From positions 1 to 55,774 of the IMG/VR virus record IMGVR_UViG_3300033143_001114: 55,774 nucleotides of DNA. The stretch is one strand, 5' to 3'. The notes below the pieces were generated by a model. It worked only from the letters and a program-made list of their open reading frames with translations, had not been told where the DNA came from and searched no databases. This DNA is from a virus. Position 1 is the stretch's first letter. Every line of letters starts with the position of its first letter. Positions 6,787-55,774 of this stretch are shown here, in pieces. The position numbers and the translations under genes are program-made.

Positions 6787-8598
6787 ATGGCTCTTATTCA
6801 AATTAAACGCTCTACAGGAACAGCGACACCGCCTTCACTGGCTGAAGGTGAATTAGCGTATTCAGAATTATCCGATAATTTATTTATTGGTAAATCAGGG
6901 TCAGTAGTTGCCAAGATTGGCGGCTTGACAGAAGTCAATAAATTAGCTGGTGTTGAGGCACTTGCCGATGTAACAGATACAGCAAACGTTACCGCAGCAG
7001 GCGCGTTGATGGACAGCGAGTTAGCTTCCGAATCAGCAGTTAAAGCAACTACAGCGGCATTTTTGACTGCAGACGAAACTAAATTAGACGGTATTGAAAC
7101 CGCAGCTACAGCAGATCAAACAGGCGCTGAGATTAAAACAGCTTATGAAGCAGAAGCAAATGCATTTACAGATGCACAGTTTACTAAATTAGGTGGAATT
7201 GAAACATCAGCCGATGTAACAGACACAGCAAACGTAGACGCTGCAGGTGCAGTAATGCACACAGACGTATCTGGTGGCAACGATGGCTTCTTATTGAAGA
7301 CTGGTGCTGAAACATACGAATCAGTTAAACTTAATAGAGGCGCGGCTGCTGCTCCAATTGCAACAGACGACACTAACTCAGGCTACTCAGTAGGTTCACG
7401 TTGGATTGATACTACAAACAACGAAGAATGGTTATGCGTAGACGCAACTGCAACTTCGGCTGTTTGGTTAATGGTTTCAGGTGGTGGTGACGTAGATGGT
7501 CCAGGCGTAGCAGTAGATAACGCTGTAACACGTTTTGATGGTACTGACGGTAAGAACGTTCAAAGCTCTGGTGTAGTAATTGATGATTCAGACAACGTTA
7601 CTGGAATTGCTAATCTTAGCTTAACAGGAACAGTAGATGGTCGTGATGTTGATGCCGACGGTACAGCACAAGATGATCACATTGCAGACGTTTCAGGTAA
7701 CCCACACGCTGTAACATTAGAACAAGCACGTTCAGAAAATGGTACACTTGCAGGTAATATTGCAATGGGTGGTTTCAAAGTAACAGGTGCTGGTAACGGT
7801 ACCGCAGCAGGCGACTTAGTTAATAAGAGTCAATTGGATGCGGCACAAGCTGGTATTTTGGTTAAAGATGGTTGTCGTGTTGCTACAGATGCAGCACTTC
7901 CTGCAGTAACCGCAGCAGGCGCAAGCGTTGGTAAAACTTTGACAGCAGATGCAGTAGGCATTTTAACTGTTGACGGAGTTGCAACTTTATTAGGTGATCG
8001 TGTTTTGGTTAAAGACCAAGTTGCTCAAATAGACAATGGTATTTATGAAGTAACAACCGAAGGTACAGCAGGCGTTGCGTTTATACTTACTCGTGCTACT
8101 GACTATGACGGCGACCCTGCATCAGAAATCACTGAAGGAACATTCACGTTCATTAGTGAAGGTACTGCAAATCAGAAATCAGGTTGGGTATTGTTAGATG
8201 ATGCTGACTTTACAGCAGGTGTTGCAAATGTTGACGTTGCAAGCAACGAATTAGTATTTGCTCAGTTCCAGGGCTTACCAGCATACGTAGAAGGCTCAGG
8301 CATTGATATTACTGGTGATACAATTTCAATGGATATCACTAACTTAACAACAGCGGCCGTTGTTGCTGCAGATGAACTAGCGTTTTACGATATAAGCTTA
8401 GGTGCAATACGCAAAACTACAGTTTCATTGTTACTAGGTGCTATCAGTGGTCTAAGTAATGTATTGAACGACGCAGACATTTTTGTTGGTAATGGTTCAA
8501 ACATTGCAACAGGTGTTACAATGTCAGGCGATGCTACAATGGCAAATGACGGTACAATCACACTTACAGCCGCAGCGTTAGATGGTGGTTCATTCTAA
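6787..8598 (+). CDS. Large tail fibre protein
   Basis: 603 residues. The N-terminus 'ALIQIKRSTGTATPPSLAEGELAYSELSDNLFIG' is the common phage fibre head-binding domain (MTD-like N-terminal fold). Two similar segments at ~55-165 (VTDTANVTAAGALMD, VTDTANVDAAGAVMH, each with 'TKLDGIET'/'TKLGGIET') are shaft repeats. Residues ~330-480 carry a domain seen in many fibres (SQLDAAQAGILVKDGCRVATD, GDRVLVKDQ, YDGDPASEI). The C-terminus 'GDATMANDGTITL' is typical of fibre ends. It is flanked by a terminator/promoter pair upstream and a strong hairpin downstream, so it may be a single-gene unit. Confidence 0.85.
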   Translation: MALIQIKRSTGTATPPSLAEGELAYSELSDNLFIGKSGSVVAKIGGLTEVNKLAGVEALADVTDTANVTAAGALMDSELASESAVKATTAAFLTADETKLDGIETAATADQTGAEIKTAYEAEANAFTDAQFTKLGGIETSADVTDTANVDAAGAVMHTDVSGGNDGFLLKTGAETYESVKLNRGAAAAPIATDDTNSGYSVGSRWIDTTNNEEWLCVDATATSAVWLMVSGGGDVDGPGVAVDNAVTRFDGTDGKNVQSSGVVIDDSDNVTGIANLSLTGTVDGRDVDADGTAQDDHIADVSGNPHAVTLEQARSENGTLAGNIAMGGFKVTGAGNGTAAGDLVNKSQLDAAQAGILVKDGCRVATDAALPAVTAAGASVGKTLTADAVGILTVDGVATLLGDRVLVKDQVAQIDNGIYEVTTEGTAGVAFILTRATDYDGDPASEITEGTFTFISEGTANQKSGWVLLDDADFTAGVANVDVASNELVFAQFQGLPAYVEGSGIDITGDTISMDITNLTTAAVVAADELAFYDISLGAIRKTTVSLLLGAISGLSNVLNDADIFVGNGSNIATGVTMSGDATMANDGTITLTAAALDGGSF

Positions 8599-45346: not shown

Positions 45347-46036
45347 ATGCATATTACTGAGAATACAATGGGAGTTTTAAAGAACTTTGCAACAATCAAC
45401 CAAAGCTTATTTATTCGTAAGACAGATGGTGGAAAAAAGGTTATCACAACTTTATCAGGCGCCGAGAACATTATCGCTAAGGCTACTGTCGACGAATCAT
45501 TCCCGCAAGACATTGCCATTTACGATTTAAACGAATTCCTAAATACTTTGTCACTATTCAACGAGCCACAACTAGGCTTTGATTCAGATTCATTTATGGC
45601 AATCAAAGAAAAGAATGGCCGCACTTCATGTAAATACATGTATGCCCCAGTAGAGATTATGAAGAAAGCACCTGAAGATGGCTTGAAGATGCCGTCAGTA
45701 GATGTTGAATTTGTATTGTCAGAAGCTAACTTGGCACAAATTGTTAAGGCTTCAACTGTAATGGGACTTGAGGATGTTACTATCAAGGCAGAAGGCACAG
45801 AGATTGTGTTGGCTATTCATGATAAAAAGAACCCAACTTCAAACACGTTTGACCTTGTTGTAGGTGAATGTGCTGAAGGTACTTCATTCAATGTGGATTT
45901 CAAAATTGATAACTTCAAGTTTGTAGAGGACGGTTACAAGGTTGAAATTTCAACAAAGATGCTGAGTCACTTTGTTGGCCTTGTTCAAGGCATGGAATAT
46001 TGGGTAGCAATCGAATCATCTTCAACTTTTGGGTAA
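45347..46036 (+). CDS. 45: Sliding clamp, T4 gp45-like
   Basis: 229 residues (T4 228). 'VLKNFATINQSLFIRK', 'ISTLSGAENIIAKATVDESFPQDIAIYDLNEFLNTLSLF'-type sequence and the end 'GLVQGMEYWVAIESSSTFG' follow gp45. A trimeric ring, it tethers the polymerase and activates late transcription through gp55. Its ribosome site is GAGGAA. It starts the clamp/loader unit with genes 44, 62 and regA. Confidence 0.93.
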   Translation: MHITENTMGVLKNFATINQSLFIRKTDGGKKVITTLSGAENIIAKATVDESFPQDIAIYDLNEFLNTLSLFNEPQLGFDSDSFMAIKEKNGRTSCKYMYAPVEIMKKAPEDGLKMPSVDVEFVLSEANLAQIVKASTVMGLEDVTIKAEGTEIVLAIHDKKNPTSNTFDLVVGECAEGTSFNVDFKIDNFKFVEDGYKVEISTKMLSHFVGLVQGMEYWVAIESSSTFG

Positions 46037-46042
46037 ATCATT

Positions 46043-46993
46043 ATGAGCAACGAACGTGAGAGTATTTTTGTTGAGAAGTACCGCCCACAAACAATTGAAG
46101 AGTGCATCCTACCAAAAAGTTTAAAGGATGTATTTACAAAGTTTGTAGATAATAAAGAGTTTCCTAACTTGTTATTATCAGGTGGACCTGGCATAGGTAA
46201 AACCACTGTAGCCAAGGCTTTATGTAACGAGCTAGGTTATGATTGGATGATTATCAATGCATCATTAAACGCGAACATGGATAAACTAAGAAATGACATT
46301 TCAAAGTTTGCCAGCACTGTTTCGTTAATGAACAAAGGTGCCTATAAGGTTATCATACTCGACGAAGCAGATCATCTTAACCATCATATTCAACCCGCAC
46401 TTCGCGGATTCATTGAAGAGTTTTCAAGCAACTGTAGGTTTATATTCACCTGCAACTATAAAAATAAAATAATCGCACCACTTAGAGATTCACGTCTTGC
46501 CAATATTGATTTTAATATCAGTAAGAAAGACATGCCTCCTCTAATGGGTCAGTTTATGAAACGCATTGAAGGCATTCTTGAAGTTGAGGAAATCAAATAC
46601 GACAAGAAAGTTATAGCTGAATTAATTAAAAAGTTTTTCCCTGACTTCCGTAGGGTACTTAATGAAATACAGCGTTACGGTATAGGTGGGGAAATTGATA
46701 GCGGCATCCTTGCATCAATCGGCGACTTTGAAATTAATGATCTTGTCAAGCATCTTAAGAATAAAGACTTCACTGAGATGCGTAAATGGGTGGGCTCAAG
46801 TGTTGACATTTCACCAACAGAAATATTTAGACGTATTTATGATACGATGTATGAATATTTAGACAAGCAAAGTATTCCTAAAGCTGTTTTGATTTTGGCA
46901 GACTATCAGTACAAATCAGCATTCGTAGCAGACCAAGAAATCAATTTGGTTGCATGTCTAACTGAGTTAATGGTAGAATGTGAATATGTTTGA
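46043..46993 (+). CDS. 44: Clamp loader large subunit, T4 gp44-like
   Basis: 316 residues (T4 319). 'VEKYRPQTIEECILP', Walker A 'LSGGPGIGKTTVAKAL' (~48-63), Walker B 'VIILDEADHLNHH' (~104-116), SRC-type 'DSRLANIDFNI'. AAA+ subunit of the gp44/62 complex that opens and loads the clamp with ATP. It ends 8 bases past the start of gene 62. Confidence 0.95.
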   Translation: MSNERESIFVEKYRPQTIEECILPKSLKDVFTKFVDNKEFPNLLLSGGPGIGKTTVAKALCNELGYDWMIINASLNANMDKLRNDISKFASTVSLMNKGAYKVIILDEADHLNHHIQPALRGFIEEFSSNCRFIFTCNYKNKIIAPLRDSRLANIDFNISKKDMPPLMGQFMKRIEGILEVEEIKYDKKVIAELIKKFFPDFRRVLNEIQRYGIGGEIDSGILASIGDFEINDLVKHLKNKDFTEMRKWVGSSVDISPTEIFRRIYDTMYEYLDKQSIPKAVLILADYQYKSAFVADQEINLVACLTELMVECEYV

Positions 46994-47438
46994 ACTGAAA
47001 CCAATCCCTGAAAAGGTTGAAGAGCCTATAGTAAAGGAGAAGAAGTTAAACTTTTTTGCTTGCCTTAATGAGATCAACACAGGCAAGAGTGATATGTTCC
47101 GTGATGGTGAAGAGCCTTTAGAGATCGTTCAAAAAGCTTATGATTCATTCATGGTCAACCGAGGTTTAAGTTATTTTATAGATACAATCATGCATGCGAA
47201 TATGATGAACCTTAATTCGTCATTACCCAAGCAGATGCAAAATGACTTTCACCTAAATAGTGTAAGGAAACGGAAACGCTTTAGTAAATGGTTTAAGGGA
47301 TCTAAGTCAAAAGAGATTCAGATGATTGCTGAATACTTTAACTATAGTTATTCTAGAGCAGAACAAGTTATAGAATTAATTGATAATGAAACAATAAAAA
47401 ATATTAAATTGAAGATGAATAAAGGTGGCAAAAAATGA
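46986..47438 (+). CDS. 62: Clamp loader small subunit, T4 gp62-like
   Basis: 150 residues from ATG; a GTG two codons earlier (46980) is an alternative and no strong ribosome site separates them. 'LNFFACLNEINTGKSDMF', 'YDSFMVNRGLSYFIDTIMHANMMN', 'VRKRKRFSKWFKG', 'IAEYFNYSYSRAEQVIELI' fit gp62, though it is shorter than T4's (187). It overlaps gene 44 and, by ATGA, the RegA frame, as in T4 order 45-44-62-regA. Confidence 0.9.
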   Translation: MFELKPIPEKVEEPIVKEKKLNFFACLNEINTGKSDMFRDGEEPLEIVQKAYDSFMVNRGLSYFIDTIMHANMMNLNSSLPKQMQNDFHLNSVRKRKRFSKWFKGSKSKEIQMIAEYFNYSYSRAEQVIELIDNETIKNIKLKMNKGGKK

Positions 47439-47863
47439 TTGACGACGCAAACGACATTATTGATACTGGCAATTGGGGAGTTGAGAACATGGTTGAGATT
47501 ACTTTCGGCCATGAAGATGACTTCCTTAAAATCAAAGAAACACTTACTCGTATAGGCATCCCTTCATTCAAAGAGAATATCCTATATCAGTCATGTAATA
47601 TTTTACACAAGAAAGGTAAATATTATATTGTGCATTTCAAAGAGTTGTTCGCGCTTGACGGTAAGAACACTTCATTCACAAAGGGAGACGCACGCCGTAG
47701 GAATACTATTTTGAAGCTACTGGTAGAGTGGGGTTTGTGTGACGTTGTAGATGTTGCTCAAGTTGCCGACGGCTTCGAGGATGTAAACAGAATTAAAATC
47801 ATCAAGCATAGCGAACGTGATGATTGGAACCTTAAACAAAAATATAATATAGGATCAAATTAA
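47435..47863 (+). CDS. regA: Translational repressor RegA
   Basis: 142 residues from the ATG that overlaps gene 62 (ATGA) with AGGTGG upstream. The T4-like part begins at 'MVEITFGHEDDFLKIKETLTRIGIPS' (residue 19), whose ATG at 47489 has GGGGAG eight bases upstream; starting there gives 124 residues, matching T4 RegA (122). 'ILYQSCNILHKKGKYYIVHFKELFALDG' and 'LLVEWGLCDVV' are diagnostic. RegA binds early mRNAs at ribosome sites to stop translation. Which start is used is uncertain. Confidence 0.92.
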   Translation: MIDDANDIIDTGNWGVENMVEITFGHEDDFLKIKETLTRIGIPSFKENILYQSCNILHKKGKYYIVHFKELFALDGKNTSFTKGDARRRNTILKLLVEWGLCDVVDVAQVADGFEDVNRIKIIKHSERDDWNLKQKYNIGSN

Positions 47864-47864
47864 T

Positions 47865-48392
47865 ATGTCGATAAATAAAGACCAGGAAGAGTTCACAGCA
47901 GAAAATCAAATTCCTGTTGAAGAGACACCCGAGTTACACCCAGATAACTTCAAAGTAAAATCTCCTGAAATGAATTTGTTTGATTATATGCAATTAGCTG
48001 GCCGCACAAATAAAACATTCCCAGGCGGTGTTCAATTATCACAAGAGCAAATGGAAGTTTTACATGGCTCTATGGGTATGGTAACAGAAGCGGGTGAGTT
48101 GATGGACGCCATTAAGAAGAACTTTATTTATGGCGCACCACTTGATAAGGTGAACATGCAAGAAGAACTTGGCGACATCGCATGGTACTGGATATTGATT
48201 TGTAGATTTTATAGTTGGGATCCATACGAGATTTTGAAAATGAATATTGATAAACTGCAACTTCGTTTCCCTAATGCTTTTACAGAAGAAGATGCATTGA
48301 ATAGGGACTTGAATAAAGAGCGCGCACTTTTAGAAGAAAATGATCAAAAAACCTCCGATGGATATTGCGCTCACCCTAGAACTGAAGACTAA
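47865..48392 (+). CDS. mazG: MazG-like nucleotide pyrophosphohydrolase
   Basis: 175 residues. The all-alpha NTP pyrophosphatase motif is 'GMVTEAGELMDAIKK' (ExxE) and 'NMQEELGDIAWYW' (ExxD), which bind magnesium and the triphosphate, followed by 'ILKMNIDKLQLRFPNAFTEEDAL'. N-terminal ~35 residues are a disordered extension. Phage MazG is thought to adjust nucleotide or (p)ppGpp pools. Directly before the deazaguanine genes it could also clear unwanted nucleotides, which is inference. Confidence 0.85.
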   Translation: MSINKDQEEFTAENQIPVEETPELHPDNFKVKSPEMNLFDYMQLAGRTNKTFPGGVQLSQEQMEVLHGSMGMVTEAGELMDAIKKNFIYGAPLDKVNMQEELGDIAWYWILICRFYSWDPYEILKMNIDKLQLRFPNAFTEEDALNRDLNKERALLEENDQKTSDGYCAHPRTED

Positions 48393-48396
48393 TTTG

Positions 48397-48405
48397 TGAT
48401 ATAAT
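48397..48405 (+). promoter_or_regulatory. Extended -10 promoter before the deazaguanine operon
   Basis: TGA-TATAAT with a poor -35 match 17 bases upstream. GAGGTG ribosome site and ATG follow within 25 bases. Confidence 0.5.
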
Positions 48406-48424
48406 ACAACAGGTGAGGTGAACA

Positions 48425-48643
48425 ATGAACGCGAATATTTATGTAGTGTTTAAAGATGGTGTATATAATGCTCCTTGCGGCAGCTTGAGAAGCGTTGTGA
48501 CAAAGGTAAAAGACTTGGGCAACCTAGGCGATGTGCTGGTTGATACAGCGGCTATCCGTCAAGATGTGAAAGTAGGTAAAACATTTTCAATCAAAGGTTC
48601 CAATGGTGCTTTGATTGAAGTCCGTAAAGACACATTAGTTTAA
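48425..48643 (+). CDS. Small unknown protein
   Basis: 72 residues with GAGGTG before the ATG. It is beta-rich (IYVVFKDGVYNAPCG, VKVGKTFSIKGSNGALIEVRKDTL), perhaps a small barrel. First gene behind the extended -10 promoter and 14 bases before queD. Not recognised. Confidence 0.5.
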   Translation: MNANIYVVFKDGVYNAPCGSLRSVVTKVKDLGNLGDVLVDTAAIRQDVKVGKTFSIKGSNGALIEVRKDTLV

Positions 48644-48657
48644 GTGGGGATTATATA

Positions 48658-49239
48658 ATGTATAAAATTTCAAAAGACTTTTCATTATGTTATGGTCATC
48701 GTGTATGGACTCAAGAACTCAAAGAAGAATTTTGTCAAGATGGTGATTCAAGCTGTAAATGTAAACACCTCCATGGGCATGAAGGATTAATTAGAGTTGC
48801 ACTTGAGGCCAACCTATTAACAAAAGGTATGGTAACAGATTTCAAACATCTTGGTTGGGTTAAAAACTTCCTTGATGATAATTTAGATCATAAGTTTATC
48901 GTTGATAGAAATGATCCATTATTTTACAACATCATAGGTCTTGAAAAAGATATCCTCGATGATGCTTTAGATAGAGTATATCTAGATAACAATCTTGTAG
49001 GCTGGAAGATTTTACCATTACCTAATGCAAATTCAATAATGGCAGAATTGTTTGAGAGCTTTTTCATAGTTGACTTCACACCAACCTCAGAGAATCTTGC
49101 AGAATGGTTATATCATATTGTAATGCATAAGATGGTATCGTTTTACCCAGGAGTAAGAGTTGAGAGTTTAATGTGGCAAGAGACGCCAAAATCGAAAGCC
49201 ACTTATACTACACACAAACCTGGAGATGGTATATTTTGA
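48658..49239 (+). CDS. queD: 6-carboxytetrahydropterin synthase (QueD-like)
   Basis: 193 residues. PTPS-fold features: 'FSLCYGHRVW' (first zinc His), 'CKCKHLHGHEGLIRVAL' (zinc His pair and catalytic Cys region), 'GMVTDFKHLGWVKNFLDDNLDHKFI' and 'PTSENLAEWLY' with the substrate-binding Glu. Second step of preQ0 synthesis, converting dihydroneopterin triphosphate. It is longer than E. coli QueD (120), with an insertion at ~100-135, typical of phage forms. It overlaps queE by 4 bases (TTGA). Confidence 0.9.
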   Translation: MYKISKDFSLCYGHRVWTQELKEEFCQDGDSSCKCKHLHGHEGLIRVALEANLLTKGMVTDFKHLGWVKNFLDDNLDHKFIVDRNDPLFYNIIGLEKDILDDALDRVYLDNNLVGWKILPLPNANSIMAELFESFFIVDFTPTSENLAEWLYHIVMHKMVSFYPGVRVESLMWQETPKSKATYTTHKPGDGIF

Positions 49240-50111
49240 AATTAAAATACTCTGAAATATTTTACAGTATGCAGGGCGAGGGATACCATATAGGTGTCCC
49301 TTCCGTGTTCTTACGAACTTTCGCGTGTAACTTTGAGTGTAAAGGTTTTGGTCAAACTAAACCTTACTTACCTGAAGAAGATATGCCGCATAACAAGTTC
49401 GATATTACAACGATAAATAATATTAACGAATTACCTGTGTTTAATGTTGGTTGTGATTCATCTGCTTCGTGGGCAAAGAAGTATGCACACTTGGCTCCAA
49501 TGGACACTATGGCTGACCTTGCTAAGAAGATTGCAGCATTAACTCCAATGCAAGATGAATGGACCGTTAGAGAAACAGGGCATTTTATACATCTTGTAGT
49601 TACAGGTGGAGAGCCACTATTAAAAGGTAATCAAAAGAAATTTATTGAATTGTTAGAACAGCCAGAGTTTAGATACTTACGAGATATTACATTTGAAACA
49701 AATGGAACACAACAATTAACTGACGAATTTAGAACGTGGCTTTATAGGCAACAAGGTTTGAGAGTAACGTGGTCAATATCACCTAAGCTTTCAATATCAG
49801 GTGAGAAATATGGAGCAGCTATAAATCCTAGGGCAGTGCTTTCAATACAACAATCAATGAAACAAAACGATATAATTTATTTTAAATTTGTTGTAAGAGA
49901 AAGAGATAATATAAAAGAGATTATACATGCATTAGGTGATTATGAAGATGTGGGTATTCATACCAACATTGTCTATATAATGCCAGAGGGAGCAACACAA
50001 GAAGGTTTATCATTAACAGAAACCTCTGTTGCAGAACTTGCGCTTGAATGTGGTCTACGTTATTCACCAAGACTGCATGTAAATATATTTGGGAATAAAT
50101 GGGGAACTTAG
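49236..50111 (+). CDS. queE: 7-carboxy-7-deazaguanine synthase (QueE-like radical SAM)
   Basis: 291 residues from a TTG that overlaps the queD stop, with GGAG upstream; the frame extends back to 49173 inside queD, which is unlikely. 'SEIFYSMQGEGYHIGVPSVFLRTFACNFECKGFG' is the QueE start. The cluster Cys pattern is CNFEC, and 'NVGCDSSASW' about 40 residues on may give the third Cys; the canonical CxxxCxxC is absent. 'LVVTGGEPLLKGNQ' and 'FETNGTQQL' are radical-SAM GGE and QueE motifs. Third step of preQ0 synthesis. Confidence 0.88.
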   Translation: MKLKYSEIFYSMQGEGYHIGVPSVFLRTFACNFECKGFGQTKPYLPEEDMPHNKFDITTINNINELPVFNVGCDSSASWAKKYAHLAPMDTMADLAKKIAALTPMQDEWTVRETGHFIHLVVTGGEPLLKGNQKKFIELLEQPEFRYLRDITFETNGTQQLTDEFRTWLYRQQGLRVTWSISPKLSISGEKYGAAINPRAVLSIQQSMKQNDIIYFKFVVRERDNIKEIIHALGDYEDVGIHTNIVYIMPEGATQEGLSLTETSVAELALECGLRYSPRLHVNIFGNKWGT

Positions 50112-50112
50112 T

Positions 50113-50787
50113 ATGCCGTTAGATAAGAGATTTAGAATAGATGATCATATTTATTTTGTTCATGAATATGGATTGGACATGGACGGAAACGAAATACACG
50201 TCTACGGTGATGAAAGATATGTGAATGAAGAACAAACTGAACCTGGTGTAGAGTATTTAATGTCAGCTAGGTTTATTAAAAATATGAATTTGATTATGGG
50301 AAAAACCGGGAATGAGAATATATTAATTCATCTTAAATCCTGTGGAGGAATGTGGGAAGAAGGAATGGCAATGTATGATATAATTAAAACGTGTCCAAAT
50401 TATATCACAGGATTAAATTACACTCACGCTCGTTCTATGACTTCATTGGTTTTCCTTGCTTGTGATAAACGAGTAATGATGCCACACTCTACTTTTATGT
50501 TTCATGAAGGAACTTTCGCAATAAATGGAACAGTCAAACAAGCCAGAGTAGAAATGAAAGAGTTGGAGAGAACGTCTAAAGAGATGGTAGATGTTTATGT
50601 AGATATTTTGAAAAACTCTGAGCATGGAAAATATAGAGATAAATCTGTGAAGTGGATCAGAAATTGGGTATCAAAACAAATGAATGATAAAGAAGAAGTC
50701 TACTTGACCGCTCAAGAAGCGGTTGATGTGGGATTTGCTCATGAGATTTTTGATGGTGATTGGAGTAAAGTTTCAACAAGAAAATAG
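50113..50787 (+). CDS. ClpP-like serine protease
   Basis: 224 residues from the ATG with GGGGAA six bases upstream; an upstream in-frame start at 50089 lies inside queE. ClpP features: 'ILIHLKSCGGMWEEGMAMYDII', nucleophile Ser in 'ARSMTSLVFLACDKRVMMP' and His in 'STFMFHEGTFA'. Phage ClpP-like proteases usually process head or tail proteins or join host ClpX. Its place inside a nucleotide-modification operon is unusual and its target unknown. Confidence 0.85.
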   Translation: MPLDKRFRIDDHIYFVHEYGLDMDGNEIHVYGDERYVNEEQTEPGVEYLMSARFIKNMNLIMGKTGNENILIHLKSCGGMWEEGMAMYDIIKTCPNYITGLNYTHARSMTSLVFLACDKRVMMPHSTFMFHEGTFAINGTVKQARVEMKELERTSKEMVDVYVDILKNSEHGKYRDKSVKWIRNWVSKQMNDKEEVYLTAQEAVDVGFAHEIFDGDWSKVSTRK

Positions 50788-50810
50788 AAGTATCAATTAT
50801 TATAATAATG

Positions 50811-50819
50811 TGCTATAAT
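50811..50819 (+). promoter_or_regulatory. Extended -10 promoter before folE
   Basis: TGC-TATAAT with a weak -35 region, followed within 25 bases by GGGAGTG and the folE ATG. It resembles the -10 boxes before gene 55 and the MoxR gene. Confidence 0.5.
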
Positions 50820-50842
50820 ATGTAGAACAATGGGAGTGTTGA

Positions 50843-51478
50843 ATGATAGATAAATGGGTTAGTAATAAAAATAAAGTTGTGTCAAGTGGGGATATGGTTC
50901 AAATAGAACAAAATACAGAAGCTGCCGTCCAACAACTATTAGAAGCACTTTGTATAGATACTGAAAACGATCACAATACCAAAGACACTGCAAAGCGCGT
51001 CGCAAAAATGTTTCTTCATGAAACGTTTAAAGGTCGTTATGAAGCAATGCCCAAGGTTACAGCTTTCCCTAACGCAGGAAATTATGATCAAATTTACTTG
51101 ACGGGACCTATAACAATCAGGTCAACATGCGCCCACCACTTTCAAAACATTATAGGTAAATGTTGGATTGGTATTTACCCAGGTAAAAAAGTTATTGGCT
51201 TGAGTAAATTTAATAGGCTTGTTGATTGGATTGCATCCCGTCCTCAAATTCAAGAAGAAATGACGGTACAAATAGCCGACCTTATTGAAGAGCAAACACA
51301 AGCACAAGGAATAGCTGTTATTGTTAAAGCAGAACATATGTGTCTAACTCATCGTGGCTTTAAAGAACATGAGAGTGATATGACAACCTCAGTAATGCGA
51401 GGAACGTTTTTGAAGAACGTACATATGAAACAGGAATTTTTATCATTATTATCAGGAATGAAAGGGTTTAATTCATGA
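50843..51478 (+). CDS. folE: GTP cyclohydrolase I (FolE-like)
   Basis: 211 residues. 'DTAKRVAKMFLHETFKGRY', 'ITIRSTCAHHFQNIIGKCWIGIYPGKKVIGLSKFNRLVDWIASRPQIQEEMT' and 'VIVKAEHMCLTHRGFKEHESDMTTSVMRG' are diagnostic; zinc ligands Cys (TCAHH), His and the later Cys (EHMC) are intact. It makes dihydroneopterin triphosphate from GTP, the first step to preQ0. It overlaps dpdA by 4 bases (ATGA). Confidence 0.94.
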   Translation: MIDKWVSNKNKVVSSGDMVQIEQNTEAAVQQLLEALCIDTENDHNTKDTAKRVAKMFLHETFKGRYEAMPKVTAFPNAGNYDQIYLTGPITIRSTCAHHFQNIIGKCWIGIYPGKKVIGLSKFNRLVDWIASRPQIQEEMTVQIADLIEEQTQAQGIAVIVKAEHMCLTHRGFKEHESDMTTSVMRGTFLKNVHMKQEFLSLLSGMKGFNS

Positions 51479-52728
51479 AGGCGCAATTCTTACCAGCTAT
51501 ATCAACGGCAACTACAGGCTACCTAGCTGCAAACTCAGATGAAGATTTTCTAAACCATTCAGACAATATCACAAAGTCTTTCAGGTTTTTCAACCAAGAC
51601 AGTGATGCATATTTTCATCATCCGTTTGTTTTAATATCAGCTTCCCACTTGTTTAAGAAAACTGAAAACATCCGAGAGCATCTTGGTATCGACGACAAAC
51701 AATTTATTTTTATTGACTCAGGTGGTTACTCACTCGCCTCAGGAGCAATCAAAGAGAAAGATTGGAATGATCAGCTTGCATATAAATGGTCTAATAACAA
51801 CGGAAACGTTTTCCCAATACTTGATAGACCATTAATTCCTAATTGTGATTATGATAAACACTTGGACTTGTCATTTAAGTCTGCTGAATACTACGCAACA
51901 GAACGTCCAGGCGATGATAAGAAATTAATATTGAATGTTGTACAAGGTAGAAATACAAAAGAACTGAGTACATGGATCGATAAAATGGCTCAAATTCCTT
52001 TAGATGGTTGGGCACACGGTGGTCACCGAGGTCATATGTCAAACATCGTTGGAGTCATACTTGAATTAATAAATAAAGGCTTAATGGAAAACTCAAAGAT
52101 TCATCATATCTTTGGTGTATCATCATGCGCCTCAATGGTTTACTTTGCGGTTATTCAAGATGAATTACAGAAGCTTGGATTCAAAACACAATTAACATAT
52201 GATAGTTCTTACTTCCAAAGGTCATTTGCTTTTGGTAACTGGTTCCTTTATAAGAAGTTCGACGGCATGGTTAATATCAGACTTTCAAATAGGTATGATT
52301 GGTCACACGTTCCTAAAGGTACAAAGATCCCCTGTGAATGTCCTTTGTGTTCACCAGTTACAGACGTACATGAATTTTTTGAGAACTCTATGACTTTTTA
52401 CATGTTAGGCGCAATGCATAATCTCTACCAGATGCTTTCATATAAAAGATCAATTGAGAACTTGTTACACTTCGGCAGCGTACAACCAGCAACAGATAAA
52501 GAAGGTAATGTTTATAACGTAGACCCGTTTTTACAAACTGCATTACCCGCTAAGATGTGGAGAAACATTTGTGCAATCAAAGAAGCATTTGCTAATCCTA
52601 AGTCAGGTGCAAGGATTATGAATATGAAATTTGAAGATAGAAATGTTGAAACTCCACCACCAACTTTAAATCAATTCATGCCTGATTATGTAGAAAAAGA
52701 AACAATGTTAGATGAGGATAGAGTGTAA
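51475..52728 (+). CDS. dpdA: DNA 7-deazaguanine transglycosylase (DpdA-like, TGT family)
   Basis: 417 residues. The catalytic Asp region 'FIFIDSGGYSLASG' (~81-94), the 'LILNVVQGRN' strand, the 'WAHGGHRGHM' pocket, and the TGT zinc site 'CECPLC' with the following 'AMHNLYQML' His are all present. Bacterial tRNA enzymes have the same layout, but in a phage with folE/queD/queE/queC this paralogue is expected to insert preQ0 into DNA in exchange for guanine. The C-terminal ~40 residues are charged and variable. DNA rather than tRNA as substrate is inferred. Confidence 0.87.
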   Translation: MKAQFLPAISTATTGYLAANSDEDFLNHSDNITKSFRFFNQDSDAYFHHPFVLISASHLFKKTENIREHLGIDDKQFIFIDSGGYSLASGAIKEKDWNDQLAYKWSNNNGNVFPILDRPLIPNCDYDKHLDLSFKSAEYYATERPGDDKKLILNVVQGRNTKELSTWIDKMAQIPLDGWAHGGHRGHMSNIVGVILELINKGLMENSKIHHIFGVSSCASMVYFAVIQDELQKLGFKTQLTYDSSYFQRSFAFGNWFLYKKFDGMVNIRLSNRYDWSHVPKGTKIPCECPLCSPVTDVHEFFENSMTFYMLGAMHNLYQMLSYKRSIENLLHFGSVQPATDKEGNVYNVDPFLQTALPAKMWRNICAIKEAFANPKSGARIMNMKFEDRNVETPPPTLNQFMPDYVEKETMLDEDRV

Positions 52729-53219
52729 TGGCACATATGGCCTTTGATTTAGACGGCGTGTTATTATCCGACAATCATGTTGGAACGGATAAAGATGCGG
52801 CTTGTGATTTAACTACTGTTCTGAATTTCAGGATTAGGAACATGCTTAGATTATTTGTTCCTAATAAACGTTATGCTATTATAACAGGTAGACCTAAGCT
52901 TGATGAAACAGAAACTTTGTTTTGGATACACCAAAACTTGAGCGATAATTTACCAATAGATATTTATCATGATCGCCCGTGGATTGAGAACTTTGATATA
53001 GCCAAACATACGTTAGGTGCCGCAAAGTATAAAGCAGAAGTTTTAAATGAAGATACACTTATTGATGTTTATATTGAAAGTGATATAGAACAGGTTAAGT
53101 ATTTGCAAGATAATGTTAGAAATACTTGTTCAATATTACATTTTGAGACATTGGTAGTAAACGCAATAAACAATGAAGTAGAACACCAAAGGAGAATACA
53201 ATGGCAAAAGTCTTTCTAG
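52728..53219 (+). CDS. HAD-like phosphatase
   Basis: 163 residues. The haloacid-dehalogenase nucleophile motif is 'MAFDLDGVLL' (DxD, ~5-10) and motif II-like 'YAIITGRPKLDE' (~62). The later acidic motif could be 'DTLIDVYIESD'. Probably a nucleotide or sugar phosphatase of polynucleotide-kinase-phosphatase type. Coupled to dpdA (TAATG) and overlaps the phosphoribosyltransferase gene by 19 bases, so it likely belongs to the same pathway. Confidence 0.7.
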   Translation: MAHMAFDLDGVLLSDNHVGTDKDAACDLTTVLNFRIRNMLRLFVPNKRYAIITGRPKLDETETLFWIHQNLSDNLPIDIYHDRPWIENFDIAKHTLGAAKYKAEVLNEDTLIDVYIESDIEQVKYLQDNVRNTCSILHFETLVVNAINNEVEHQRRIQWQKSF

Positions 53220-53740
53220 AATATAAAGATTTAAAGAATATTTGCTGTTCAATCACTGATAAGATTAAACGCGAAGAAGAAAAACCTTTTACTGAGATTG
53301 TAGCAGTAACAAGAGGTGGGCTTACAGCGGCACATATTTTTGCAAAGGAATTAAACCTTGATGTAGGTATGTTCCTGCCAAAACCTTATCAGCTTGCACT
53401 TAACAACGATATTACCGAAGACACAAGGCTTTTACTTGTGGAGGATTTGGTTGCTCAAGGCAGAACATATGCTGAAATAAAAGACTTTTTCAGAATGTTC
53501 AATGAGTCAATAACAAACGAAATGACTGCCGAAGGTGTAGAGTACGAAGGCGTCAAGCATATTATTGATTGGGAATTTTGTCCAATCCTAATTGACGATT
53601 CATATGAGCCGAAGGACGAGTTTAAATACTTTGGCTATACTTCTAAAAACTGGGTTGTGTTCCCTTATGAAGACAGCGAGAAAGTTGTGATTGGGGATCG
53701 TGGCTTACATAGAGATGGGAGCGACCAATATGGGAAATGA
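53201..53740 (+). CDS. Phosphoribosyltransferase-family protein
   Basis: 179 residues. The PRPP-binding loop 'LLLVEDLVAQGRTY' (~78-91) and 'EIVAVTRGGLTAAHIFAKEL' (~33-52) are typical of type I purine or pyrimidine phosphoribosyltransferases. It could make nucleotides from free bases, including deazapurines, but specificity cannot be read. The C-terminal ~45 residues (YFGYTSKNWVVFPYEDSEK) resemble xanthine/guanine-type enzymes. Confidence 0.78.
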   Translation: MAKVFLEYKDLKNICCSITDKIKREEEKPFTEIVAVTRGGLTAAHIFAKELNLDVGMFLPKPYQLALNNDITEDTRLLLVEDLVAQGRTYAEIKDFFRMFNESITNEMTAEGVEYEGVKHIIDWEFCPILIDDSYEPKDEFKYFGYTSKNWVVFPYEDSEKVVIGDRGLHRDGSDQYGK

Positions 53741-54296
53741 AATATGGGAACAAATTAACCACGAACCTTATCCAAAAGAAGTAAAGGATAGAGTATTTGA
53801 ATTTGTTAAGTTTATAAACCTATATAAAACTTGCGGTCCTATTGCAGACTTAGGTTGTGGTAATGGTTTCATCGCAGACGAACTTTCCCGTATGCATAAT
53901 AAATTCAAGTCAATAGATTTGTATGATTACTTCCCAACACACGAATCAATTCAGAAAATTGACCTAAACAATTTTGGCAATACACCAGAACGTAAGTACA
54001 GCACCGTATACCTTTCACATGTGATGGAACATTTAAAAGATCCTGTATATACTTTGAATATTATTAAGAAGGAATTCCTTAATCCTTCACATGGTCGAGT
54101 TATTATTGCCGTTCCTAATGGCGAGTATGACAATGGACATAATCCTTTCGATAAAGAGATTGGTCATATTTCATTGTTTAGTAGATTCAGTATTGAAGAT
54201 AATATGAGGAAGGCAGGCCTTATCCCAAAAATTATAACTGTTAATACATTGGATGCGAACTACCCAGAGATATGGGCCGTAGGAGAATGTCCGTGA
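53730..54296 (+). CDS. Class I SAM-dependent methyltransferase
   Basis: 188 residues from the ATG with GGGAG eight bases upstream; earlier in-frame starts at 53691 and 53715 lie deeper inside the previous gene. SAM motif I 'PIADLGCGNGFIADEL' (~36-51), acidic 'IDLYDY', and 'VYLSHVMEHLKDPVYTL' with 'GRVIIAVPNGEYDNGH' follow the Methyltransf_11/23 pattern for small molecules rather than DNA N6A enzymes (no DPPY). Being in the deazaguanine operon suggests base tailoring, which is speculative. Confidence 0.75.
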   Translation: MGNEIWEQINHEPYPKEVKDRVFEFVKFINLYKTCGPIADLGCGNGFIADELSRMHNKFKSIDLYDYFPTHESIQKIDLNNFGNTPERKYSTVYLSHVMEHLKDPVYTLNIIKKEFLNPSHGRVIIAVPNGEYDNGHNPFDKEIGHISLFSRFSIEDNMRKAGLIPKIITVNTLDANYPEIWAVGECP

Positions 54297-55126
54297 TACC
54301 TAAAAGAAAGAAAGTTGCTGTAATGGTTTCAGGTGGCTTAGATAGTTTCATTGCATATGAATATGCTTTAACTGCTTTTGCCGATGAAGAATATACAGAA
54401 GTTATTCCTGTATATGTTCGATATGGTAGCCCTTATCAAGACAAAGAAGATGCTGCTATTGATAAGCTGTTCGGTAATATTAAAAATTTAAAAATCATTA
54501 ATGCTGACCTTGCCACAGAAGATCTTGATAATGTACCAACATTAGAACAACAAGAGATTTATGGTAGGAACTTGTTAATGTTATTTTATGGTGGAGTTGT
54601 GGGTGATGTTATTTGGCTGGCAAGCTTAGAAACTGAAATGAACCCAACGGCAGTTAGAGATAAACACCCAGAGTTTATGCATATGTGTTCTTCAATATTC
54701 TCGTATATATTTAAGAGCAAGCGTTTTGAAACTGTTGTGGAAACACCATTCAAGGACTTTACTAAATCGGATATTGTTCGTATTGCATTGAATGATTTAG
54801 GTATCACAGTGCAAGAGTTGGTGTCTACCTCTACTTGTTACCATGAAGAACACCACAATTGCGGGCAATGTTCTACATGTTTCAAACGTTGGATTGCAAT
54901 GACTAACAATGGAATTGACGAAGAAGATTATGTCACACACCCATATAGAGATAATGAATACGCCCAATGGGTGTGTATGGATATGAGACGTGTAGCAAAC
55001 GCAGGAATTGAAGAACCTCGTTATTCATATAAAAGATTGATCGAAACTCATAATGCTTTAAAGAGAGCAGGCTTTGAAGGAATATTTAAAGCCTATGATA
55101 ATTTAATAATCGACAGTGGGAGTTAA
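54293..55126 (+). CDS. queC: 7-cyano-7-deazaguanine synthase (QueC-like)
   Basis: 277 residues from a GTG overlapping the previous stop (GTGA) with AGGAG seven bases upstream; ATGs at 54272 and 54287 are less well placed. PP-loop 'AVMVSGGLDSFIAYEYAL' (~8-25), 'PVYVRYGSPYQDKE', and a C-terminal zinc site built from 'STSTCYHEEHHNCGQCSTCFKRW' (~181-203). It turns CDG into preQ0 with ATP and ammonia. Longer than E. coli QueC (231). Completes the pathway to preQ0. Confidence 0.88.
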   Translation: MIPKRKKVAVMVSGGLDSFIAYEYALTAFADEEYTEVIPVYVRYGSPYQDKEDAAIDKLFGNIKNLKIINADLATEDLDNVPTLEQQEIYGRNLLMLFYGGVVGDVIWLASLETEMNPTAVRDKHPEFMHMCSSIFSYIFKSKRFETVVETPFKDFTKSDIVRIALNDLGITVQELVSTSTCYHEEHHNCGQCSTCFKRWIAMTNNGIDEEDYVTHPYRDNEYAQWVCMDMRRVANAGIEEPRYSYKRLIETHNALKRAGFEGIFKAYDNLIIDSGS

Positions 55127-55128
55127 TC

Positions 55129-55431
55129 ATGGCATTAGATCAATTCAAAAGAGAAATAAGAGTAGGAGATATTATATCCTACCCTGGTAGACAGTCAAGT
55201 TCTATTTGGAACAATATCGCCGTTGTTAAAAAGCTAAATGTAAACGGTTCATTAGGAGTAACACGCGGCCCTCAATATAGATGGGAAACAAATCAAAACC
55301 TTAGAAACACGACTGTTCATATGACTCAAAGAGCTATCATCCTTAATAAAGAGGATCTAGCAACTGTTAAAGATAATAACATTCAAAACTTACTTCTTAT
55401 GTCAATTGTGTATCTTAATGAAACAAAGTAA
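55129..55431 (+). CDS. Small unknown protein
   Basis: 100 residues. 'FKREIRVGDIISYPGRQSSSIWNNIAVVKKLNVNGSLGVTR' looks like a small beta-barrel (SH3-like); the rest has 'HMTQRAIILNKEDLATVKD'. Two bases after queC and overlapping the next gene by 14 bases. A related pattern is seen in unannotated proteins of T4-like phages. Function unknown. Confidence 0.55.
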   Translation: MALDQFKREIRVGDIISYPGRQSSSIWNNIAVVKKLNVNGSLGVTRGPQYRWETNQNLRNTTVHMTQRAIILNKEDLATVKDNNIQNLLLMSIVYLNETK

Positions 55432-55774
55432 ATTAGAATCCTGGCTAGAGACTGGTGTTAATATTGTAACGGGGTTTATGATCGCTTGGGCGGCGTGGCA
55501 ATGGATAGTCCTTCCTATATGGGAATATGATGTAACACCAGCGGATAACTTTAACATAACAATGTTCTTCACTGTTATATCAATCATCCGCTCTTATTTG
55601 TGGCGCAGGTATTTCAATGACCTATTCCCTCACCAAACAAAATTACAGTCGTTCCTAGAACAATGCGCCAACATGGGCAGCGGCTTAATCATCTCAGTGT
55701 TCTTATTGACATATGTTATAAATCCTTTTTACGGATTTGAAGCATCGCCAATAGATAACATTTTAATAACTGCA
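55418..55774 (+). CDS. Small polytopic membrane protein, 3' partial (DUF7220-like)
   Basis: 119 residues are visible and the frame is open at the right edge. Pattern 'ESWLETGVNIVTGFMIAWAAWQWIVLPIW' then 'DNFNITMFFTVISIIRSYLWRRYFN' matches a family of small phage membrane proteins with a conserved 'SxxRSYxxRRxF' after the second helix. A second, weaker copy begins at ~82 (CANMGSGLIISVFLLTYVINPFYGFEASPIDNI), so the protein may be a tandem duplication. Role unknown. Confidence 0.6.
   Translation, partial: MKQSKLESWLETGVNIVTGFMIAWAAWQWIVLPIWEYDVTPADNFNITMFFTVISIIRSYLWRRYFNDLFPHQTKLQSFLEQCANMGSGLIISVFLLTYVINPFYGFEASPIDNILITA

Follow-up and report, generated by a model that had tools for sequence, protein, structure and literature searches.

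A complete preQ0 gene set with a divergent, putative DNA transglycosylase in a fragment of a T4-like myovirus, and a phosphoribosyltransferase family that tracks the pathway

Introduction

Why would a virus carry an entire pathway for making a modified guanine? This question is raised by a run of genes at positions 48658-55126 of a 55,774-base stretch of viral DNA (IMG/VR record IMGVR_UViG_3300033143_001114; hereafter the window), a fragment of a T4-like myovirus. The run is on the + strand and encodes FolE, QueD, QueE and QueC, the enzymes that lead from GTP to 7-cyano-7-deazaguanine (preQ0), together with a member of the tRNA-guanine transglycosylase (TGT) superfamily. An original prediction, made from the sequence, held that these genes probably replace guanine in virion DNA. 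Based on the analyses described below, we believe, with a probability of about 0.82, that the run makes preQ0 and couples its synthesis to a DNA transglycosylase that modifies phage DNA.

Results

The window encodes a complete preQ0 pathway and a transglycosylase. The Pfam, PHROG and NCBIfam scans were concordant for QueD (6-carboxy-tetrahydropterin synthase, 48658-49239; Pfam PTPS, E = 6.1e-24; PHROG QueD-like, 5.1e-34), FolE (GTP cyclohydrolase I, 50843-51478; Pfam, 8.6e-51; NCBIfam NF006826, 168.5 bits against a cut-off of 162), and QueC (preQ0 synthase, 54272-55126; Pfam QueC, 5.7e-16; PHROG QueC-like, 1.3e-24). QueE (7-carboxy-7-deazaguanine synthase, approximately 49236-50111; PHROG QueE-like, 1.2e-50) in all likelihood begins at position 49236 with a TTG codon, overlapping the stop codon of QueD. 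The fifth gene (51475-52728) encodes a putative DpdA-like DNA guanine transglycosylase with a TGT fold; the superfamily was named by Pfam (TGT, E = 1.9e-7; 30.9 bits, cut-off 26.3) and NCBIfam, and weakly by PHROG. The motifs that we read from the sequences were CxxxHGH in QueD, CAHH in FolE, SGGLDS and CxxCxxC in QueC, and DSGG, the nucleophile aspartate and CxCxxC...H in the transglycosylase. All five genes are present with key motifs within the coordinates first given, and all lie on the + strand.

A near-identical viral contig, IMGVR_UViG_3300033155_000819 (G001, also L002; compared proteins 100% identical), encodes all five pathway genes at full length and 100% identity to the window. It is therefore scarcely credible that the run is silent or broken in the window virus and its DNA unmodified, because the five genes are open, contain their motifs and are the same in both contigs. 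Two features would fit a broken run: the phosphoribosyltransferase (PRT) gene of the run is altered, and a 29-base deletion in G001 (around window positions 53184-53212) joins the HAD-like gene and the PRT gene into a single reading frame.

The cysteine motif of the window QueE is split. In the 290-amino-acid reading of the protein, C30, C34 and C72 form CX3C-X37-C in place of CX3CX2C. These three cysteines were kept in 164, 164 and 161 of 164 aligned rows, respectively, and the spacing CX3C-X34-42-C was found in 157 of the 161 rows with the full set of iron-sulphur cysteines, a count that includes the window and any duplicate rows. The QueE of Vibrio phage nt-1 has a similar spacing. As read from the sequences, those of HVTV-1 and Campylobacter phage CP220 have shorter insertions and those of 9g and CAjan have the ordinary CX3CX2C. 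The PHROG and NCBIfam scans agreed on QueE and Pfam gave a weak Fer4_12 match; the split motif may explain why the Pfam scan showed no radical-SAM (S-adenosylmethionine) domain. The model of the protein had a pLDDT (predicted local distance difference test) of 84.6, and its top match in the PDB was E. coli QueE (6nhl).

The transglycosylase has the active site of its superfamily and scores far below the tRNA Tgt cut-offs. Alignment to E. coli Tgt indicated that D81, D117, Q157, G182-G183 and D243 are kept, as are the zinc ligands C287, C289, C292 and H315. We take the roles of these residues to be those in Zymomonas Tgt, with D81 as general base, D117, Q157 and the Gly-Gly pair in the pocket, and D243 as nucleophile. 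The AlphaFold model (pLDDT 82.5) gave a best Foldseek E of 9.3e-11 with tRNA Tgts as its PDB matches, and comparison with human TGT (7nq4; VIA-align) gave a Z of 24.6 and a root-mean-square deviation (rmsd) of 3.7 over 302 residues. The catalytic aspartates, the pocket and the C3H zinc site are traits of the whole superfamily and therefore do not tell a DNA enzyme from a tRNA enzyme. Scores against the NCBIfam models were 19.4 bits (cut-off of 306.75) for TIGR00430, the bacterial Tgt, and 20.6 bits (cut-off of 350) for TIGR00432, the archaeal TgtA; judged by these cut-offs the enzyme is not a tRNA Tgt.

These results bear on whether the genes might instead raise queuosine in host tRNA, with phage preQ0 converted by host QueF to preQ1 and then inserted at G34 of tRNA by the phage enzyme or host Tgt, thereby aiding translation. 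A comparable cluster has been read in this way for the Ps15 phage (PMC9025141). We consider this unlikely for the window. Although the enzyme has a Tgt-like residue set, including a zinc site that is not seen at the aligned columns of DpdA1 and DpdA2 rows, it scores far under the tRNA Tgt cut-offs and its profile is nearer those of other phage transglycosylases than that of E. coli Tgt (below). The best structural matches are also tRNA Tgts; no enzyme named DpdA was among the listed PDB structure matches, an absence that is itself uninformative either way. Against this reading, QueF was not found in the window or G001 and no tRNA gene was detected in the window.

The transglycosylase does not belong to DpdA1 or DpdA2. 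In a profile comparison, the window-type group matched a group of viral enzymes of about 515 amino acids at 99.7% and enzymes of Pseudomonas putida and Xanthomonas jumbo phages at 98.7%. The values were 49.8% for DpdA2, 24.9% for DpdA1 (9g, CAjan, phiSM) and 22.6% for E. coli Tgt, which was represented by one sequence. The DpdA2 group itself reached 93.2% with E. coli Tgt, indicating that these percentages alone do not separate DNA enzymes from tRNA enzymes. In a tree of 32 rows, ten window-type rows formed one group (support of 96/94) that did not contain E. coli Tgt and was separate from the DpdA1, DpdA2, 515-amino-acid and jumbo-phage groups. The order among the groups is unsettled; the window-type group joined DpdA1 with support of only 85/81, where long branches meet.

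DpdA1 membership was rejected because the match to PHROG 887 was poor (E = 0.0088, 16 bits) and the profile value was 24.9%. DpdA2 membership was rejected because neither the window nor G001 matched PHROG 10773 at E 0.01 and the DpdA2 rows formed their own group in the tree. The DpdA rows in the tree and the profile comparison were those of DpdA1 and DpdA2; a DpdA is also encoded in the bacterial dpd cluster, and DpdA3 and DpdA4 are subfamilies reportedly described by Cui and colleagues in 2023. The phiSM DpdA1 fragment (240 amino acids, frame interrupted) was included in the profile comparison and left out of the tree, and a match in Dp-1 with seven internal stops was not used. Among the reference phage records, PHROG 887 found DpdA1 in 9g, CAjan, phiSM and Dp-1. 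The Pfam TGT model had no match in ten reference phage records even at E 1 and is thus no test for DpdA as such. The original prediction had proposed comparing the enzyme with DpdA families and tRNA Tgt: by score and in the tree, deep order aside, the enzyme did not cluster with tRNA Tgt, the outcome that would have refuted the prediction. Separately, the viral transglycosylases of about 515 amino acids (L188, L155 and others) have lost the zinc cysteines and kept the final histidine and the catalytic aspartates.

Window-type transglycosylases are found with preQ0 genes in other viruses. Thirteen loci that encode a window-type transglycosylase were recovered by scanning viral contigs. One of them is near-identical to the window, and in all 13 either QueC adjoins the transglycosylase or QueD, QueE or FolE is nearby. 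No relative turned up in a single peptide-pattern scan that covered the genomes of 84,980 bacterial and archaeal species. The gene order in L229-L231, L233 and L237 is QueE, a gene of 156-159 amino acids, PRT, QueD, FolE, QueC and TGT; FolE and QueC are either adjacent or separated by a single additional gene. L232 ends before QueE, and L234 has the transglycosylase ahead of QueC. PRT genes are present in 8 of the 13 loci (L225, L229-L234, L237), and two others (L235, L236) are cut off. By eye, the gene of 156-159 amino acids between QueE and PRT (L229, L233, L013) possibly encodes a ribbon-helix-helix protein and might regulate the run.

Some transglycosylase genes are flanked by glycosyltransferase-like genes. 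These were recognized by Pfam in Synechococcus phage BUCT-ZZ01 (L007, 11772-15929) and by eye in L226, where they lie between FolE and the transglycosylase gene and after the latter; genes of the same sizes are at these sites in L227 and L228. No QueC was found in L226-L228 by the profiles used here. The pattern in these loci and BUCT-ZZ01 could reflect a glycosylated 7-deazaguanine or carboxy-7-deazaguanine.

A family of Gpt-like PRTs tracks the preQ0 pathway. Such a PRT was present in 31 of 88 loci, most of which had been fetched via QueE and many of which are short. Scanning from the PRT side, we found QueE in 75 of 80 loci, at a median distance of 2.1 kb from the PRT gene over the 75 loci having both, and at least one of QueE, FolE, QueD and TGT in 79 of 80, all within the fetched stretch. 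With a more diverse PRT query the corresponding numbers were 73 and 75 of 80. By contrast, control loci fetched with thymidylate synthase had QueE in 1 of 80 and any of the four genes in 2 of 80; the control query came from another phage and the control loci were unmatched for phage type. The PRT loci with none of the four genes were L160 in the first scan and L248, L301, L314, L320 and L322 in the diverse scan. A transglycosylase gene was present in 29 of 80 and 24 of 80 loci, respectively. Both scans represent the best 80 of at least 600 matches, and the PRT queries (A3, A7) were built mostly from PRTs near QueE, a bias to which near-copy contigs and contigs shared with the QueE set are to be added.

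The association was also present after clustering of the PRTs. At 50% identity, QueE accompanied at least one member in 18 of 22 clusters and all members in 16; at 40% identity it accompanied at least one member in 5 of 7 clusters and all members in 4. A smaller scan with one PRT found QueE in 8 of 10 loci and QueD in 10 of 10. A relabelling run in the first scan counted pathway genes and not PRTs; it recovered few PRTs, iteration having narrowed the profile. In a profile search the best match of the family was 1vdm (5.6e-17), and xanthine-guanine PRT (XGPRT) entries such as 1a95 were also matched. We found no report tying a PRT to the preQ0 pathway in a literature search whose coverage left out most subscription papers.

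PRT genes are near QueE in isolated phages as well. A tblastn search with one PRT found 11 records: Synechococcus phage BUCT-ZZ01, five Cellulophaga phages of the phiST type, two Brevundimonas phages, two records of Pseudomonas phage PA5oct, and one faecal fragment. QueE was present in six of the seven records examined, by annotation and tblastn in BUCT-ZZ01 and by profile in phiST, phi13:1, both Brevundimonas phages and PA5oct, and was absent from the faecal fragment, in which the PRT match is weak and partial. The four records outside this count (three Cellulophaga and the second PA5oct) are the same phages or species. By lineage, QueE was present in 4 of 5, compared to at least 190 of 50,697 phage records overall (tblastn with the window QueE). 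The PRT gene adjoins QueE or FolE in BUCT-ZZ01, both Brevundimonas phages and PA5oct (PRT match in gene 7013-7447 of locus L113), and is approximately 20 kb from QueE and QueD in phiST. The 118-amino-acid gene that separates PRT from QueD in BUCT-ZZ01 matched nothing below E 0.01.

The run contains four genes in addition to those of the pathway. The inventory first given for it was correct for the five pathway genes and omitted these four, the order being QueD, QueE, ClpP-like, FolE, TGT, HAD-like, PRT, methyltransferase and QueC. Taking the earlier starts, each gene overlaps the next by 1-25 bases, the one exception being the 55 bases that separate FolE from the gene ahead of it; if the later starts are taken, the ClpP-like gene opens 1 base after QueE. 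The ClpP-like serine protease is encoded at 50113-50787 (listed open reading frame [ORF] from a TTG at 50089; Pfam CLP_protease, 7.2e-19; PHROG head maturation protease, 8.8e-23). This gene is inside the preQ0 run and distant from the structural genes, an arrangement found elsewhere among the 88 loci solely in G001. The HAD-like gene (52728-53219) has a DLDG motif by eye and no Pfam match at 0.01, and its PHROG match to polynucleotide kinase was weak (0.0067). The PRT gene (53201-53740) is a divergent copy of the Gpt-like purine type (PHROG phosphoribosyl transferase, 2.4e-7) with scores below the NCBIfam xanthine PRT cut-off (1.1e-8; 34.8 bits against 138) and the Pfam cut-off (23.5 bits against 26.3). 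A SAM-dependent methyltransferase is encoded at approximately 53730-54296 (listed ORF from a TTG at 53691; Pfam Methyltransf_23, 5.3e-14).

The window is part of a larger genome, and gene absences therefore carry little weight. Upstream of the run we found matches to T4-type terminase, tail sheath, portal, scaffold, major head protein, SbcCD-like nuclease, sliding clamp and clamp loader in a scan that took in 20 of the 75 listed ORFs of at least 100 amino acids. A megablast search with positions 46000-55774 as the query found nothing among 50,697 phage records.

Discussion

We propose that the products of the run act in sequence on phage DNA. FolE, QueD, QueE and QueC would convert GTP to preQ0. 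The DpdA-like enzyme would remove guanine at selected positions in phage DNA through a covalent aspartate intermediate (D243), and preQ0 or a later derivative would be inserted where guanine was removed. The modified DNA would probably be shielded from host restriction enzymes. What the sequence shows directly is which genes are present, a TGT fold in the model, the residues of the active site and how far the enzyme lies from the tRNA Tgt models; the DNA substrate, the identity of the product, the share of G that is changed and the protection are inferred.

The PRT family suggests an addition to this scheme. With every base that a TGT enzyme inserts, one guanine is released. For the family as a whole, a Gpt-like PRT could convert the guanine freed in each exchange to GMP, closing the loop with FolE. 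We tentatively suggest, at somewhat less than even odds, that many viruses with 7-deazaguanine in their DNA carry such a guanine-recycling arm, in which the PRT captures the ejected guanine as GMP in a closed cycle with GTP, and that the loss of a conserved aspartate from the window copy may mark a shift towards a 7-deazapurine substrate. This suggestion comes from linkage, family and arithmetic. A burst of 50-150 progeny would free approximately 0.9-2.7 million guanines, or 1.5-4.4 mM, assuming a 160-kb genome with the G+C content of the window, exchange of 30% of G and a volume of 1 fL; with 0.02% of G exchanged the release would be only micromolar. If the PRT family exists to take up guanine, it would help to explain, in a way open to testing, how viruses can afford to modify their DNA heavily, and its genes would mark such viruses in metagenomic data.

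Several observations weigh against this account, some against modification and others against recycling. The nearest isolate matches of the transglycosylase were 13 records with approximately 25% identity, and a search of the PDB with its sequence found no sequence, so that its assignment to DNA rests on context. With only a fragment of the genome, no single product can be fixed. Vibrio phage nt-1 counts on both sides: it is T4-like, has such genes and ArcS, and contains 7-deazaguanines in its DNA, which supports modification, but each of three derivatives makes up only approximately 0.02 to 0.11% of G (PMC6884629), so that the change in the window virus may be slight.

The genes seen point to a likely product. 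In line with the original prediction, no QueF was found in the window or G001, although the genome is incomplete; the G001 search took in 30 records, three of which matched at E 0.01, one of them (Vibrio phage VH7D) over the cut-off. Without QueF, the product is likely to be 2'-deoxy-preQ0 (dPreQ0) or one of its derivatives, and since QueC also has no second Pfam domain, the scheme in PMC6884629 predicts dPreQ0 or the deoxynucleoside of 7-amido-7-deazaguanine (dADG). A QueF or ArcS encoded elsewhere in the genome might alter the product, as might enzymes of the host. The methyltransferase may come in at a later step, although nothing ties it to the base. In the phages measured in the same source, the main derivative ranged from none (Orion, which has no preQ0 genes) to approximately 32% of G (CAjan), with approximately 0.02-0.1% in 7-11 and nt-1. 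The complete gene set fits the claim that guanine in virion DNA is changed; given this range, "replaced" is too strong and is better read as partly substituted.

The remaining adverse observations concern the PRT. The window PRT has kept the acidic pair (E-D) of its phosphoribosyl pyrophosphate (PRPP) motif and has alanine at a position where an aspartate faces N7 of the base in purine PRTs. This aspartate was kept in 80 of 80 sampled PRTs and not in the window PRT, which also lacks the (R/M)DG loop that ten relatives show in the same alignment. Used alone as a query, the window PRT retrieved nothing from the phage records at E 0.01 and nothing from the PDB sequences below E 0.5. Without the conserved aspartate, PRT activity, and hence recycling in the window virus, is doubtful; the protein may be decaying, regulatory, or changed in substrate, and the deletion near the gene in G001 fits a loosely constrained gene. 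In addition, no PRT gene was present in the fetched stretch of 3 of the 13 window-type loci (L226-L228), and the tblastn search with one PRT did not match the Vibrio, Stenotrophomonas or P. putida phages that have the pathway, indicating that the PRT is not required.

The altered aspartate might also be explained by entry of the modified base at the nucleotide level. 7-Deazapurines have no N7 atom. The PRT would make a preQ0 nucleotide that is reduced, phosphorylated and incorporated by the phage polymerase, and the transglycosylase would be secondary. The tight linkage between PRT family and pathway fits this route, and G001, which extends further downstream than the window, has genes there that by eye resemble a deoxynucleoside monophosphate (dNMP) kinase and a DNA polymerase. 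However, the aspartate is kept in all 80 other sampled PRTs, a transglycosylase is encoded in the same run and in 24 of 80 and 29 of 80 PRT loci, and the DpdA of CAjan is essential for modification in that phage (PMC6884629). We regard nucleotide-level entry as highly improbable and favor insertion by the transglycosylase.

The finding is real, and the kind of system is already known. Published work ties 7-deazaguanine in DNA to gene sets of this kind, in which a preQ0 pathway is complete and the transglycosylase is not of the tRNA type (group 2 of Hutinet et al. 2019, PMC6884629), as had been predicted for the window. Like the group 2 phages described there, Escherichia phage CAjan and Mycobacterium phage Rosebush, whose gene sets have no amidotransferase, the window has FolE, QueD, QueE, QueC and a transglycosylase. 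In what is an incomplete genome, no QueF was found and QueC has no fused amidotransferase domain, a single Pfam family having been reported for it; ArcS was not searched for. Unlike group 2, the window has a transglycosylase outside DpdA1, a split QueE motif, and additional PRT, HAD-like, ClpP-like and methyltransferase genes.

The transglycosylase can be compared with three other kinds of phage enzyme. It is like the nt-1-type DpdA2 (PHROG 10773) in occurring in T4-like phages, in belonging to the TGT superfamily, and in having DSGG and the nucleophile aspartate. The window clade differs in keeping CxCxxC...H, which four DpdA2 rows do not have at the aligned columns. The enzymes of jumbo phages of P. 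putida (vB_PpuM) and Xanthomonas (PhiXhv) and those of about 515 amino acids (IMG/VR contigs, PA5oct) are in one broad profile group with the window protein, to which they are 16-24% identical; zinc cysteines have been lost in the 515-amino-acid group. The window-type enzymes are, as judged from their sequences, a new viral clade that keeps the zinc site and would extend the range of DNA-type transglycosylases. Also new here is the PRT family that tracks the pathway. Its members are like Gpt-type XGPRTs (1vdm, 1a95; NF006613) in having the PRPP motif and a C-terminal WIVFPWE segment, and differ from them in scoring below the NCBIfam cut-off and, in the window copy, in having alanine at the position of the N7 aspartate.

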